Shown here in pieces: positions 2,689 through 20,052 of a stretch of DNA of 30,343 nt (positions are counted from its first letter, which is position 1; the number at the start of each line of letters is the position of its first letter). The position numbers and the translations under genes were made by a program. The notes beneath the pieces are model-generated. The model searched no databases. It was not told the origin of the DNA and worked only from the letters and a program-made list of their open reading frames with translations. The DNA is from a virus, in the IMG/VR virus record IMGVR_UViG_3300004774_000478, positions 1-30,343 of that record; one strand, written 5' to 3'.

Positions 2689-3252
2689 ATGTCCGAAAGT
2701 AGCGACGCAATCAGCTTCAAAGCCCTCCGCGAATACTGCAAAGAACTCGGTCTAACCTCCGTGACTATCGGGATGCCGGTCGATGAGATGATCGCTCAGG
2801 CCCGCAAGACCGAAAACCCACGTGCCTGGCTAGCCGCCCTCAGCAACGCCCCTCCGGAAGACGATGAAGATTCAATCCGTGAGGCCCATGCAGAAGCCGC
2901 GTATACCGACCCACCCGCCGTCGCCGCTTCGATCCCTTCATGCGATCTAGTTCCGCACGAGCCTGACCCTATCCCTCAGTCTATCCCCTTCACACTGATC
3001 GGATCGGACCTCATTGCCGTCGTCCTTCCGATCTCGCGTGAGCAGCCCGTCGGCTACCTGGAGCGGGAAATGCGGCTCGACCTGCGGCTCGGTCCCGCCG
3101 CCTCGATCGCCTTCCGCCGGCTCTGGAAAGCCCTCGACCAAAATAACACCCGGCTCAAGTGCGGAAAGCACGTCGGCTCATCCCGGGCCGACGTCGTCCG
3201 CTGGGTCTTCGAGCAGGTCGCCGACGCAATCGCAACCAAAGGCGGCGTCTAA
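2689..3252 (+). CDS. Hypothetical protein in packaging operon
   Basis: An unrecognised 187-residue protein. The N-terminal 55 residues are helical. An acidic, proline-rich linker follows (about 56-105), then a compact C-terminal domain (about 105-180) with the pattern LEREMRLDLRLGPAASIAFRRLW and a VGSSRADVVRWVFEQV helix. That tail could be a small nucleic-acid or partner-binding helical unit, but no family is identified. It starts 5 nt after the terminase stop, and its own stop overlaps the next start by one base (TAATG at 3250-3254). It is therefore in the same transcriptional and translational unit as the terminase and the ParB-like gene. GC-rich codon use matches its neighbours, which supports it as a real gene. 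Confidence 0.72.
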   Translation: MSESSDAISFKALREYCKELGLTSVTIGMPVDEMIAQARKTENPRAWLAALSNAPPEDDEDSIREAHAEAAYTDPPAVAASIPSCDLVPHEPDPIPQSIPFTLIGSDLIAVVLPISREQPVGYLEREMRLDLRLGPAASIAFRRLWKALDQNNTRLKCGKHVGSSRADVVRWVFEQVADAIATKGGV

Positions 3253-3896
3253 TGGCCAAGAAGTCGCCCATCCACTTAACGACCCACGATCCCCATTCCC
3301 ACATCGCCGAGCAGCTCCGCCCGCTCGCCGTGGCGATGGACCGAGTACATCTCGACCCCAAGAACGCCCGCGAGCACTCCGCCGCCAACCTCACGGCGAT
3401 CGCCGCCAGCCTCCGGGAGTTTGGCCAGGTCAAGCCGATTGTCGCTAACCGGCAGAATAGTCAGATCGAGGCCGGCAACGGCACCTACCTCGCTGCTCAG
3501 ACCCTCGGTTGGTCCACCATCGCCGTCGTCTGGGTCGATCACGATTCTCAGCAGCAACGCGGCTTCTCCCTCGCCGACAACCGAACCGCCGAACTGGCCA
3601 ACTGGAATCAGCAAGTACTCGACGAGCTGCTGGCGGAGGTGCGCGACGAGAATGCGGATCTCTACAGCGAGCTGCTGTTGGCCGATCTCGAACAGCCATC
3701 GGCGGCCCCAACGCCTGAGATCCAGGAGCTTGATGAGCCACTACCCGCGATCGAGGAAACTACCAGACACACTGTCGTCCTTCCCTACGAAGATGCCGAC
3801 GTGCCCAAACTCCTCCGCTTCCTCGGACTGCGTTCGCAAGAGAAGCTGCCTCCGGCCCTGGGCAAGGCATTGATGAACAGAATCCGCATCGCATGA
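3252..3896 (+). CDS. ParB-like (ParB/Srx N-terminal fold) protein
   Basis: A 214-residue protein whose first 120 residues fit the ParB N-terminal/sulfiredoxin fold. Visible blocks are NAREHS at 38-43, GQVKPIV at 58-64, EAGNGTYLAA at 73-82 (the ParB nucleotide-binding block, with GNGT where GEGR or GNHR is usual) and LADNRTAELANW at 107-118. There is no central HTH as in chromosomal ParB, so it is the short phage type. Such domains in phages have been linked by genome context to DNA methylases and base modification. The start at 3252 overlaps the preceding stop, and the stop overlaps the ATG of the Mom-like gene (ATGA at 3893). This operon suggests a role with the Mom-like enzyme rather than in partition. 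An in-frame ATG at 3159 lies inside the previous gene and was not used. Confidence 0.85.
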   Translation: MAKKSPIHLTTHDPHSHIAEQLRPLAVAMDRVHLDPKNAREHSAANLTAIAASLREFGQVKPIVANRQNSQIEAGNGTYLAAQTLGWSTIAVVWVDHDSQQQRGFSLADNRTAELANWNQQVLDELLAEVRDENADLYSELLLADLEQPSAAPTPEIQELDEPLPAIEETTRHTVVLPYEDADVPKLLRFLGLRSQEKLPPALGKALMNRIRIA

Positions 3897-4519
3897 GCGA
3901 ACTCAAGATCAATCTTCGCATTGCCCGAATCAGTAACGTGGATGCCGTCGCGTTCCTGAAGCGACATCATCCACTCGGTGCCGGCGGGGCCTTTAAGTTT
4001 GCCTTCGGAGCATTCTACTCGGGCCGTTGCGAGGGCGTGCTGACATTCGGCTCGCCCTCAACGAATCACGCCACTACGGCTCTCGCACTTCGACAGTGTG
4101 ATGTTCTTGAGCTTCGCAAAATGGTATTAACGGATGTGCCCCCAAAAAACTCGGAGTCAAGAGCCTTGGCGATCGCCGGCCGTCTTGTCCGCCAGGCCTA
4201 TCCACAGATATACTGTCTGCTAACCTATTGCGAGGGTGAGGAGGCCGCTGCCGCGTACCGGGGCAGCGGGTGGCAGGTGTTGAGCCGATCCGAGTATATT
4301 GCTGCGTACAAAATTGGCGGAAAATGGTACACTGCCCGCGATGCCCACCGATCACGAATTGCCGATCAGGCAACGGAAACGAAAACAGCCAAAAAACAAA
4401 AACTAATCCTGATTCTAAATGCGTGCATAGCTCAGAGAGTAGAGCACCTCGTTTCCAGCGAGGCGATGGCGGCGCAATCCCGACCTGCACGCTCCATTTC
4501 ACGCGAAATAATCGGCTAA
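3893..4519 (+). CDS. Mom-like GNAT-fold DNA modification protein
   Basis: The 208-residue ORF carries the signature I associate with phage Mu Mom and its relatives. It has GVLTFGSPS at 48-56, then LELRKMVL at 72-79, DVPPKNSESRALA at 81-93, a long helix to residue 103, and YRGSGWQVL at 122-130. Mom converts adenine to N6-(carbamoylmethyl)adenine, protecting phage DNA from restriction; the carbon donor is not settled as far as I know. The conserved domain ends near residue 150. The last 30 or so residues read through a tRNA-like gene (4421-4496), so this C-terminus may be non-functional extension. It is translationally coupled to the ParB-like gene (ATGA at 3893-3896). Another GNAT acetyltransferase is the main alternative. 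Confidence 0.78.
   Translation: MSELKINLRIARISNVDAVAFLKRHHPLGAGGAFKFAFGAFYSGRCEGVLTFGSPSTNHATTALALRQCDVLELRKMVLTDVPPKNSESRALAIAGRLVRQAYPQIYCLLTYCEGEEAAAAYRGSGWQVLSRSEYIAAYKIGGKWYTARDAHRSRIADQATETKTAKKQKLILILNACIAQRVEHLVSSEAMAAQSRPARSISREIIG
4421..4496 (+). tRNA. tRNA-Gly(UCC)-like gene with aberrant D and T arms
   Basis: A complete cloverleaf of 73 nt plus encoded CCA (4494-4496). The acceptor stem GCGTGCA/TGCACGC (4421-4427/4486-4492) pairs perfectly. The D stem is GCTC/GAGC (4430-4433/4442-4445) and the anticodon stem CCTCG/CGAGG (4447-4451/4459-4463). The loop TTTCCAG puts anticodon TCC at 4454-4456. The bacterial GlyRS identity set is present: U73, G1:C72, C2:G71, G3:C70, C35 and C36. 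Oddities are A instead of G18 in the D loop, a T loop CGCAATC lacking T54 and T55, and a T stem GGCGG/CCGACC that pairs only if A4483 bulges. It may be chargeable yet poor for EF-Tu and the ribosome. Decay of an ordinary phage tRNA is the alternative. Confidence 0.72.
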
Positions 4520-4542
4520 AGTCTTGCCCGTCAAGGCTTTTT
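4518..4542 (+). terminator. Intrinsic terminator after the tRNA
   Basis: The stem GTCTTG/CAAGGC (4521-4526/4532-4537, one G-U pair, extendable by flanking A-T pairs) with a 5-nt loop CCCGT is followed at once by TTTTT. It lies 25 nt after the tRNA CCA end and would end the packaging/modification transcript, giving the tRNA a short 3' trailer. Confidence 0.65.
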
Positions 4543-5307: not shown

Positions 5308-5676
5308 ATGAAAACGCTCACCATCCATGCCCCCTGGGCCTGGGCCATCATGCAGGGCTACAAGCGCGTGGAAAACCGCACCTGGAACACCCACTACCGC
5401 GGCCCCTTGGCGATCCATGCCGGAAACTCGATGAAGTCGGACGCCGAGGCCCGCGCCCTATTCGCCAACCTAGGGATCGGGTCCCCCGACGAATTCCCCC
5501 GGGGGGTCATTCTAGGGAGCGTCGATCTGGTGAATGTGCTCCGAACGGACGAGCTGGTCGCCGACCCCTTCGCCGTCGGCCCTTACTGCCTCATTCTCGC
5601 CAACCCCCAATTGCTTGCCGACCCGATCCCCGCCAAAGGTGCCTTGAGTTTCTGGCAGTCTGAAGTGATTCGCTAG
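5308..5676 (+). CDS. ASCH-domain (PUA-superfamily) protein
   Basis: A 122-residue single-domain ASCH protein. The start MKTLTIHAPWAWAIM and the block QGYKRVENRTW (16-26) followed by YRGPLAIHAG (30-39) are classic ASCH features. The domain forms a small beta-barrel that binds RNA, modified nucleotides or modified bases. Some family members, such as YqfB, are N4-acetylcytidine amidohydrolases; the Lys and Glu in the KRVEN block are the sort of residues used there, but the activity cannot be assigned. Its position about 800 bp after the Mom-like gene fits a reader or editor of modified nucleotides. An upstream in-frame ATG at 5149 overlaps the preceding gene and adds no domain sequence, so 5308 is chosen. 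The stop is 21 nt before a strong terminator. Confidence 0.85.
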   Translation: MKTLTIHAPWAWAIMQGYKRVENRTWNTHYRGPLAIHAGNSMKSDAEARALFANLGIGSPDEFPRGVILGSVDLVNVLRTDELVADPFAVGPYCLILANPQLLADPIPAKGALSFWQSEVIR

Positions 5677-17648: not shown

Positions 17649-18011
17649 ATGCCCTCCATCAACACCATAGTCTGCTTCAGTATTATCGGCGTGATCCCCG
17701 CGCCGAAGATGAAGCTGTCTGTATGGACGGTGCCCGGCATCAATGGCTATGGAGCGCAGCAGCTCGGCTACCAGGACCAGCACTTCGAGGTGATTCTCGT
17801 TGGCTATGGGAGCAAGTCCGCCGCCCAGACGTGGAATACGCAAGTCTGCGCCTGCCAGGGAAAGTCGGTAACAATCGTCGATGATTTTGGCAAATCGAAT
17901 GAAAACTGCCTAGTAACCGAAGTCGGCCCCATGCGATTCGAGGCCGCGATCGCCGCCGGCGGAATCGCCGTCCGGGCGGAATGTAGCGTCAAGGGGGTTG
18001 TGAGAACATGA
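17649..18011 (+). CDS. Small tail protein after the tape measure
   Basis: A 120-residue protein in the position of distal-tail or minor tail proteins. It is beta-rich with a PGINGYGAQQLGYQDQHFEV segment and GKSVTIVDDFGKSNENCLVTEV, a pattern reminiscent of the small tail-tip proteins that carry a ring-forming beta-barrel. Cysteines sit in CAC and at NCLV. No SD is visible at the ATG, which follows the tape measure stop by 16 nt. Its stop overlaps the start of the sigma factor gene (ATGA at 18008), so the regulator is translationally coupled to a virion gene. The family is unknown. Confidence 0.6.
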   Translation: MPSINTIVCFSIIGVIPAPKMKLSVWTVPGINGYGAQQLGYQDQHFEVILVGYGSKSAAQTWNTQVCACQGKSVTIVDDFGKSNENCLVTEVGPMRFEAAIAAGGIAVRAECSVKGVVRT

Positions 18012-18526
18012 CCAACCACCTCCCGCTCGTGAAATCGATCGCCACGAAACTATGTCGCTATCTGCCTTCCACGCTCGACAAGGACGACCTAATCCAAGAG
18101 GGTGCTGTTGCGCTAGTGGAATGCCTGCGAAGTCACGACCCGGCCCGCGGAGCATTCAGCACCTACGCTTATCCGTTTATTCGTGGCGCGATGCTCGACA
18201 TCATTCGGAAGCAGGATTGGGCACCTCGATTGGAACGGCAGCGGAATCCAGATCGGCTAAAGAAGATGGTTTCCATGTTTGAACCGAACCAAAACGGCTC
18301 GACGCTAGCCGACGACCTGGCGGACGACGATCCGACATTGAAGCGATTCATTCATCGCGACGAGATAGGGTATAAACTGCGAAACGTAAACCAACCTGAC
18401 CGATGGCTACTGCAAGAGTATTACATGCAGGGCCGCACGCTAGCCGAGATAGGGTTAAAGCTCGGAGTAACTAAGCAGCGAATCGAACAGCGACACGCCA
18501 AAATAATGAAGGAACTGAGATCATGA
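18008..18526 (+). CDS. Sigma-70-family sigma factor
   Basis: The 172-residue protein has sigma region 2 at 1-70 (DLIQEGAVALVECL at 27-40, then the FSTYAYPFIRGAMLDIIRK block) and region 4 at about 115-171 (LAEIGLKLGVTKQRIEQRH, a helix-turn-helix). It lacks region 1.1 and most of region 3, like FliA-type or small phage sigma factors. It should bind host core RNA polymerase and direct it to particular phage or host promoters. It is coupled to the tail protein before it and to the PEP-CTERM gene after it (ATGA at 18523), so it would be made late. It may drive the last genes or keep late transcription on. Confidence 0.9.
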   Translation: MTNHLPLVKSIATKLCRYLPSTLDKDDLIQEGAVALVECLRSHDPARGAFSTYAYPFIRGAMLDIIRKQDWAPRLERQRNPDRLKKMVSMFEPNQNGSTLADDLADDDPTLKRFIHRDEIGYKLRNVNQPDRWLLQEYYMQGRTLAEIGLKLGVTKQRIEQRHAKIMKELRS

Positions 18527-20052
18527 AAAGATTCTTATTGTCACTCCTGATTCTTATGACCTTGGCCGCGACGGCCCATGCCCATATAGCCGTACTCGAC
18601 AACCCTGGTTATGCGTGGACGGGCGCATCTTCGACCATGGTAGTAATTTCCGATCCGATCACAATCACCACCGGTGCCAACGTGCTGGTACTCGATGTGG
18701 AGGCTTTCGGCAATTCCAACTGGACCGGATTCGCCTTCAACATCAACGGCACTCCTCTCGTGCAGGCCGCAGGCCAACTCACCACCGGAACCTATAAAAC
18801 GTCTAGCGCGATCTATTATTTCTACGATCCGCCCACAGGCAGCCTGACTCTCTCCGGCACGTTTGGCAGTGCGACAGCCGCCATACTCGATTACTACACG
18901 TTGTCGGGCGTCGATACGGCGATTGCCGTGGATGGCTACTCAACCAACGGCGGCAGCAATACCACGGCCAGCCTCACGGTATCGAACTCTGCCGGGGCAT
19001 TTGCGGCCGTCAACCAGGCGTTAAAGGCCGGAGCGGAAACCTACAGCTACGCGGCCACGCACGGCACGGCCAGCACGAATCCATCTGCCACGATCAATAA
19101 TCTGTCTGGCGGATCTGGCTACGTGTTGGGCCTGACGGCCGGTACGAACGCGATCACGGCCACGGTGGACCTGAATAACGGCACTACGCATCCCATGAGC
19201 GTGGCGGTATTCACGGCATCAATTCCGGCATCCGGTTCATCGCATTGGATCGCCGGCGATGGCAATTGGAGCGGAGGCTCTAATTGGGACAGTAGCCTCG
19301 TGCCGAACGGGTCGGGACAGACCGCGACATTTTCCCAGACGGGGGATCTCACAGAAACCATTACGATTGACGATTCGCCCACCGTTGGAACCCTCGCGCT
19401 AGGCTCTACCGCAGATTCCTCTACCGAGTACGTTTTTACCGGTGGGACGCTCACCCTTAGTACGTCGGCGAGTGGTGTGGTTTGCGTGAGCGGCGGGACT
19501 CAAACGATTATCAGTTCGATTATAGGAACTGGCAAAGTAATCCAAAACGGTTCGGGAACACTCATCCTCTCAGGCAGCAACAGCTACAGCGGCGGGACAT
19601 TCGTCAACGCTGGAATGATCGTTGCCACCTCAAGCGATGCCCTGCCCGATGACGGGAGCCTGACGATCGGTTCCGGCGGCACGTTGGTATTCGATCCGAG
19701 CTTTTCCCTATCTTCCTTCGCCGCGGCACCAGCATCGGTGAGCAGCGTCTCGCCGGTCCCTGAACCTTCATCCTTCGTAATGCTTTTTATATTTTTCTGT
19801 GGTCTCTCGCTCATGTTAGGAAGGCATATCATGCGTTTTCGGAATGCGTTTCTCGGTTGCGTTTTATCGTTGGCCCTCTCTTCGTGGGCGTGTGCCTGCG
19901 AGGAAGGAACCAGTCTCCCCGGTCCACCCGGCACGCCGGAGCCGGTAACGATGGGTCTGTTGGGTGCGGCGGCCCCCTGTCTACTGGCCTGCTGGTTGCG
20001 AAATAAGCGGCGATCCCGCCTCGATGCGATGGATGAGGCCAATGACGAATAA
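18523..20052 (+). CDS. Secreted PEP-CTERM protein with beta-strand repeats
   Basis: A 509-residue protein with a signal peptide (MKRFLLSLLILMTL, cleavage near AHA at 18-20) and a beta-rich body. Residues about 241-395 match autotransporter-associated beta-strand repeats (HWIAGDGNWSGGSNWD, then GTGKVIQNGSGTLILSGSNSYSGGT). A PEP-CTERM sorting signal follows at 411-440 (PVPEP, hydrophobic helix, then GRHIMRFR), recognised in hosts by exosortase. The frame then continues without a stop into a second signal-peptide-like and PEP-like unit (437-500). Such genes belong to Planctomycetes and Verrucomicrobia chromosomes, and it is unexpected in a phage tail cluster. It may alter the host surface, for example against superinfection. 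It is coupled to the sigma factor gene. Confidence 0.87.
   Translation: MKRFLLSLLILMTLAATAHAHIAVLDNPGYAWTGASSTMVVISDPITITTGANVLVLDVEAFGNSNWTGFAFNINGTPLVQAAGQLTTGTYKTSSAIYYFYDPPTGSLTLSGTFGSATAAILDYYTLSGVDTAIAVDGYSTNGGSNTTASLTVSNSAGAFAAVNQALKAGAETYSYAATHGTASTNPSATINNLSGGSGYVLGLTAGTNAITATVDLNNGTTHPMSVAVFTASIPASGSSHWIAGDGNWSGGSNWDSSLVPNGSGQTATFSQTGDLTETITIDDSPTVGTLALGSTADSSTEYVFTGGTLTLSTSASGVVCVSGGTQTIISSIIGTGKVIQNGSGTLILSGSNSYSGGTFVNAGMIVATSSDALPDDGSLTIGSGGTLVFDPSFSLSSFAAAPASVSSVSPVPEPSSFVMLFIFFCGLSLMLGRHIMRFRNAFLGCVLSLALSSWACACEEGTSLPGPPGTPEPVTMGLLGAAAPCLLACWLRNKRRSRLDAMDEANDE
19831..20052 (+). CDS. Possible nested 73-residue PEP-motif protein
   Basis: An in-frame ATG at 19831 has GGAAGG at 19818-19823, 7 nt upstream. 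It would make a 73-residue protein with its own signal-peptide-like N-terminus (MRFRNAFLGCVLSLALSS, then CACEE), a short Pro/Gly linker, a second PEP motif (TPEP), a hydrophobic segment and RNKRRSR. The arrangement duplicates a secretion and sorting unit at the end of the long protein. Either both proteins are made, or a stop codon between two once-separate genes was lost. A lipoprotein reading (Cys near residue 20) is possible but the lipobox is poor. Confidence 0.5.
   Translation: MRFRNAFLGCVLSLALSSWACACEEGTSLPGPPGTPEPVTMGLLGAAAPCLLACWLRNKRRSRLDAMDEANDE

Follow-up and report, generated by a model that had tools for sequence, protein, structure and literature searches.

The stretch of DNA analyzed here, called the window throughout, spans a complete IMG/VR record (30,343 bases) in which Pfam and PHROG recognize terminase, portal, and other phage genes. 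It contains a ParB-like gene followed directly by a gene of the Mom family, with the stop codon of the first and the start codon of the second overlapping as ATGA (Table 1). The Mom-like ORF scores 80.9 bits against Pfam Mom (PF25680; E 1.3e-22, cut-off 27.1) and matches the PHROG Mom-like family at 2e-24. The ParB-like ORF matches its PHROG family at 8e-30, with a Pfam ParB_N score of 24.1 bits that lies slightly below the cut-off of 26.3. The coupling of a ParB-like gene to a Mom-like GNAT gene had been proposed from the letters alone, in what we refer to as the sequence-only reading, and it is upheld by both the overlap and the family matches. The terminator that this reading placed after a tRNA is also present, in the form of a terminator-like hairpin. 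A Mu-like com gene overlapping mom is absent from the window, where the upstream partner is the ParB-like gene instead. A candidate sigma-70 promoter inside mom was rejected, its match being only at chance level.

Table 1. Features of the ParB-like gene, mom, and tRNA-like element in the window
Feature	Position	Strand	Basis
ParB-like gene (ParB N-domain / sulfiredoxin-type)	3252..3896	+	Pfam, PHROG
Mom-family GNAT gene; frame spans the tRNA, stop at 4517-4519	3893..4519	+	
Conserved Mom domain	3911..4402	+	
tRNA-Gly(UCC)-like RNA, CCA encoded	4421..4496	+	Rfam, family model R1, MFE fold
5' acceptor strand GCGTGCA (G1 C2 G3), paired with 4486-4492	4421..4427	+	R1 alignment
D arm, loop AGAGAGTA; A18 replaces G18	4430..4445	+	Sequence
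Anticodon arm CCTCG-TTTCCAG-CGAGG	4447..4463	+	R1 alignment, MFE fold
Anticodon UCC (C35 C36)	4454..4456	+	Sequence
Odd T arm GGCGG-CGCAATC-CCG(A)CC; C54 G55, bulged A	4468..4485	+	R1 alignment
Discriminator U73 and encoded CCA	4493..4496	+	Sequence
Terminator-like hairpin, then T-rich tail	4518..4540	+	

The tRNA-like element lies on the same strand as mom, inside the last 33 codons of its frame and past the conserved domain, which ends near position 4402. It had been read as a tRNA-Gly(UCC) in and beyond the 3' end of mom; the cloverleaf stands, but the element is wholly within the ORF rather than partly outside it. Its minimum free energy fold is a cloverleaf (z -2.4) and, with its encoded CCA, it scores 32.9 bits against the Rfam tRNA family RF00005 (gathering score 29), although ARAGORN, when run on the window, did not detect a tRNA at 4421-4496. 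The family model R1, described below, gives it 77.8 bits (E 1.4e-15), the next match in the window reaching 14.8 bits (E 0.91), and it was the top-scoring element among the sets searched. The departures from a decoding (elongator) tRNA that had been claimed for it, namely the loss of G18, T54, and T55 and a bulged T stem, are all read directly from the sequence: A18 stands for G18, C54-G55 for T54-T55, and the bulged A sits in the 3' strand of the T stem. U33 is kept, as are the features expected of a substrate of glycyl-tRNA synthetase (GlyRS), G1:C72, C2:G71, U73, C35, and C36.

The AlphaFold model of the window Mom (pLDDT 92.5) has as its best match in the PDB the crystal structure of the phage Mu Mom S124A variant (8bv8; TM 0.74, E 2.7e-14). 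The enzyme family and fold are thus common to the window and the com-mom system of phage Mu (PF25680), and the serine that is mutated in the inactive Mu structure, Ser-124, is kept as Ser-89 in the window. Six residues that are near-invariant in the family are nevertheless replaced (Y27P, S28L, R76K, D114E, G119A, and Y171L), and the protein forms a long branch in the Mom tree. A scan with the single sequence found no viral relatives because of this long-branch position, and alignment-based searches were needed to reach them. The activity of the window Mom is therefore uncertain; with near-invariant residues being lost, this copy may be altered or decaying.

Other genes in the window include an ASCH-domain protein 3' of the module (5311-5676; above the Pfam cut-off) and a phage-encoded sigma factor (18008-18526; Pfam Sigma70 regions 2 and 4). 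Directly after the latter, a protein that looks secreted and whose end is PEP-CTERM-like (18523-20052) hints at a planctomycete-like host.

Occurrence of the element beside mom

The covariance model R1 was built from 36 diverse elements and searched against Mom loci that had been fetched by the Mom protein alone. A second model, R2, also matches ordinary host tRNAs, and weak R2 matches were counted only if they were beside mom and Gly-like. Whether such tRNAs sit beside Mom genes in relatives was the check proposed with the sequence-only reading, and the answer is strongly positive: the element was found in 80/80 loci of the first viral set, with no other match in 366 kb, and in 79/80 of the second, where the one exception (L465) stops at a contig edge. 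In both viral sets it touches the Mom domain or starts within 0-26 nt of the domain end. About 43 of 80 Mom loci from bacterial genomes carry it, two of them by the second model only. Thirteen whole bacterial genomes each gave 2-5 model matches, consisting of the Mom-linked element and, among the others checked, host tRNA-Gly, one tRNA-Glu, and one unassigned tRNA-like sequence. As far as the sequences compared can tell, the pairing of mom with a tRNA-Gly-like element is confirmed as one that generalizes to hundreds of phage loci, in phages that are unrelated to one another.

Searching from the RNA side led to the same enzyme. A DNA pattern derived from the T-arm and 3' acceptor-end sequences, with the anticodon left free, matched at least 120 viral stretches, and a Mom ORF lies on the same strand in 111/121 matches. 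Of the ten matches without one, three have a Mom C terminus at the contig edge, two start at a contig end, and one retains a remnant of Mom; the remaining four are without any Mom (L066, with half an element beside ParB, L097, L115, and L127). In L097, L127, and L115, the element stands beside ParB or another methyltransferase, which counts against the explanation that we favor below. The records of L127 (whole element) and L066 (half) show a ParB-like gene and then the element, with no Mom. In a further record of 83 kb (IMGVR_UViG_3300007177_000352, locus L522, 638-2287), a ParB-like gene, a C5-cytosine-methyltransferase-like gene, a tRNA-Gly-like element, and terminase follow one another, and the record contains no Mom; here, another enzyme is in place of Mom. 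Conversely, phiEf11 and some others have ParB-Mom without the element, which weighs against that explanation as well.

The position of the element relative to mom varies, being 3', 5', on the opposite strand (L460, L462, L466, L473, L366, L367, and Microbacterium phage Appa), in different reading frames, or in tandem copies. Labels for these positions change several times on the Mom tree (at least six changes for E5), and adjacency is thus maintained while placement moves. Two copies are found near one mom in L028 (3036-3176), L303, and L348, and four clostridial loci (L340, L341, L344, and L346) apparently have two tandem Mom matches with the element after the second. A sub-class (L363, L366, L367, L374, L388, L393, L230, and L235), many of whose loci are in sphingomonads, begins with GCGGCCC and has a bulge-free T arm; the element there is sometimes on the opposite strand.

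Directly upstream of mom, a ParB-like gene is present in 57/61 and 62/63 loci of the two viral sets (A3/A5-type) and in 0/78 Mu-like loci. It is absent from all 12 tree rows in which the element is 5' of mom and the upstream side is readable, and the pairing of Mom with the tRNA therefore does not depend on it; a part in targeting or loading on DNA is perhaps a reasonable guess. A covariance-model search found the element in 0/71 Mu-type com loci, and likewise not in phage Mu itself. These contrasts of the element with com and with ParB include too few phylogenetically independent cases for significance.

Cultivated phages provide further examples. Appa has an annotated, nearly canonical tRNA-Gly(CCC) 33 nt beyond mom on the opposite strand, and in Salinibacter phage B2_17 a tRNA-Gly is annotated immediately after mom. 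In Arthrobacter phages Sicarius2 and (by eye) Martha, a tRNA-Gly overlaps the mom 3' end. In Psychrobacter phage Y8A, the Mom of which is distantly similar to that of the window, the ParB-Mom pair is followed by two tRNA-Gly-like copies in tandem, whose acceptor ends and T arm match those in the window; the published annotation reports no tRNA genes (PMC10434257).

Conserved and variable features of the element

Among 102 distinct sequences, 96.2% of pair cells are paired and 19 of the 20 pairs show compensatory two-sided change, in an alignment that was fitted to the model structure and hence leans towards it. The covariation score is 0.680, compared with 0.153 for shuffled and at most 0.112 for slid alignments.

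No exception to G1:C72, C2:G71, U73, or C36 occurs among the 97 distinct sequences linked to Mom; C35 is present in 96 and G3 in 94, whereas acceptor pairs 4-7 are freely variable. The positions G1:C72, C2:G71, U73, C35, and C36 are those by which bacterial GlyRS is known to recognize its tRNA. The claim that the window tRNA has retained GlyRS identity is accordingly confirmed in its own sequence and extends to its relatives. U33 survives in only 40/97; U55 is found in 21/97 and G55 in 75/97. R1 is biased towards the features on which it was trained (T arm and TCCA). Lengths range from 67 to 77, with shortened D arms, and most elements have CCA. Position 34 is U in 53, A in 31, C in 9, and G in 3; the training pattern left the anticodon open, and nothing was selected away in the first set, where every Mom had a match. 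To our knowledge, bacteria make essentially no use of the anticodon ACC in decoding. Judged from these alignments, conservation tracks GlyRS identity and not decoding, and drift is concentrated in decoding features.

ARAGORN recognizes 3/160 elements, and its yield from 741 kb around 160 Mom genes is three Gly and one Met tRNA. It is tRNA-Gly only that accompanies Mom, and no other tRNA type. The T-arm bulge and the loss of G18, T54, and T55 that had been proposed as a signature are common in the family, but they are not universal: Appa is joined by L209-L211, where the tRNA is just 5' of mom, and by L460-L473 as nearly canonical members, and these tRNAs might decode. Their existence implies that the common feature of the module is a glycine tRNA, with decay of decoding a common but secondary trait.

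Possible functions of the element

The explanation that best accounts for these observations, to which we give a probability of about three in four, is that the ParB-like gene, mom, and the tRNA-like RNA constitute one phage DNA-disguise module in which Mom takes glycine from a dedicated Gly-tRNA. That the tRNA could feed glycine to a modifying enzyme was the central suggestion of the sequence-only reading; it has gained support from the Mom linkage and the conservation of GlyRS identity, and glycyl-transfer chemistry is consistent with it.

Several other functions have to be weighed. The element could act in cis, as a tRNA-like structure of the mom mRNA through which expression is controlled when, for example, Mom, GlyRS, or RNase P binds it, in a role like that of Com in Mu. 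Its frequent overlap with the mom 3' end would fit such a role, as would the mutual exclusion of com and the element, but the exclusion is based on few independent contrasts, and an element on the opposite strand, as in some loci, is not always within the mom mRNA. The full conservation of U73, the CCA in most elements, and the retention of C35-C36 point instead to charging, and we consider cis-acting control improbable.

The minority of nearly canonical members, such as the tRNA-Gly(CCC) of Appa and those of L209/L211, would be expected if this were an ordinary phage tRNA-Gly for the translation of glycine codons, parked beside mom by chance. Most elements, however, lack U33 and U55 and have lost a large part of the D arm, A34 is frequent, the tRNA finder passes over nearly all of them, and no other tRNAs stand alongside; neither chance nor translation explains the adjacency to Mom in 80/80 loci. 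We therefore reject the supply of codons as the role of the element and regard this origin as very unlikely.

The tight pairing could also be that of an enzyme with its substrate, in which Mom or the module modifies or acylates Gly-tRNA, with the phage copy serving as a decoy or a protected substitute. GNAT enzymes that act on Gly-tRNA exist in the TacT-type toxins, which speaks for this arrangement. Against it, Mu Mom is an established DNA-modifying enzyme and the ParB partner is DNA-facing, and a decoy would be expected to retain the features of a translating tRNA that are lost here, so that this possibility likewise receives very little weight from us.

An attachment site or integration scar in a host tRNA-Gly gene is highly improbable, despite host tRNA genes near some genomic Moms (L375, L360, and L362): the element is inside the phage beside terminase genes, is unlike host tRNA-Gly genes, and occurs in whole genomes besides them, and in the window it is found in the ParB-mom-terminase region rather than as a host tRNA copy at a phage end with an adjacent integrase. 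Finally, although the T arm reads in frame as GGATPTxxL in many loci, a conserved C-terminal Mom peptide (GGATPT) in place of an RNA is ruled out by the other frames, sides, and strands on which the element is placed (after the stop, 5' of mom, or opposite it) and by pervasive compensatory base-pair changes.

Glycyl-tRNA as a candidate donor for Mom

The unusual DNA base made by Mom was described in the 1980s, and its known product is N6-carbamoylmethyl-adenine. By formula, carbamoylmethyl is C2H3NO, exactly one glycine residue. A settled donor was not found in the open literature searched, where an acyl- or glycyl-CoA is only assumed, and work elsewhere, for example on 8bv8, could name one; a review assumes an acyl-CoA such as glycyl-CoA (PMC7824862).

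In the dedicated Gly-tRNA model, the tRNA-like RNA would be excised and then charged with glycine by the host GlyRS, as we infer from its identity positions, and the odd D and T arms, where present, would keep it off EF-Tu and the ribosome. The GNAT-fold Mom would use this Gly-tRNA, not acyl-CoA, as donor and add a glycine residue to the N6 amino group of adenine in DNA. In a subsequent rearrangement, the glycyl amine would displace the amide nitrogen at C6 to give N6-carbamoylmethyl-adenine (a purinyl glycinamide) with no further nitrogen donor. Such a donor would require only aminolysis by N6 and an intramolecular nitrogen shift at C6. Several points stand against a Gly-tRNA donor: the GNAT fold of Mom has stayed near that of acetyl-CoA enzymes in structure matches, the window Mom has lost near-invariant residues, and the nearly canonical Mom-linked tRNAs might decode. 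Where Mu has Com and lacks a tRNA, loci of the window type lack Com and pair mom with a ParB-like gene and a tRNA-Gly-like RNA. Mu Mom functions although its phage supplies no tRNA, and the element is never found with com-type Moms; a phage tRNA is therefore not universally required, and Mu-type com-mom phages would draw on ordinary host Gly-tRNA.

There are precedents for tRNAs and transferases of this kind. Staphylococcal cell-wall tRNA-Gly may also have GUGC in its T arm, a resemblance that we do not count as evidence. These non-proteogenic tRNAs, the donors for FemXAB, keep glycylation and feed transferases related to the GNAT fold; their isoacceptors lack G18G19, and their binding to EF-Tu is considered weak (PMC4052509). 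They are, however, bacterial housekeeping RNAs for peptidoglycan, whereas the phage RNA is tied to a DNA-modifying enzyme, its T arm is odd (G55, bulge), and its D arm is often shortened. By analogy, the GNAT-like-fold transferases L/F-transferase, FemX/MurM, and MprF use an aminoacyl-tRNA donor for a non-ribosomal reaction, as is proposed for Mom; their acceptors are protein, peptidoglycan, and lipid, whereas that of Mom would be adenine in DNA, and none of these transferases is among the listed fold matches of the window Mom, which are Mu Mom and CoA-type GNATs.

The supply of glycine to Mom is the best-supported interpretation of the element, and phages with the module probably use tRNA-borne glycine to disguise their DNA. 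We also consider it likely, at slightly lower confidence, that widespread phages carry a dedicated, partly non-decoding glycyl-tRNA that serves solely to supply a DNA-modifying enzyme with glycine, the amide arising by intramolecular rearrangement. If Gly-tRNA is the donor, then the mass of the modification, exactly one glycine residue, would be explained, and a tRNA class that tRNA finders miss would be added. The missing donor of Mom would be supplied, and this would be the first aminoacyl-tRNA-dependent modification of DNA.
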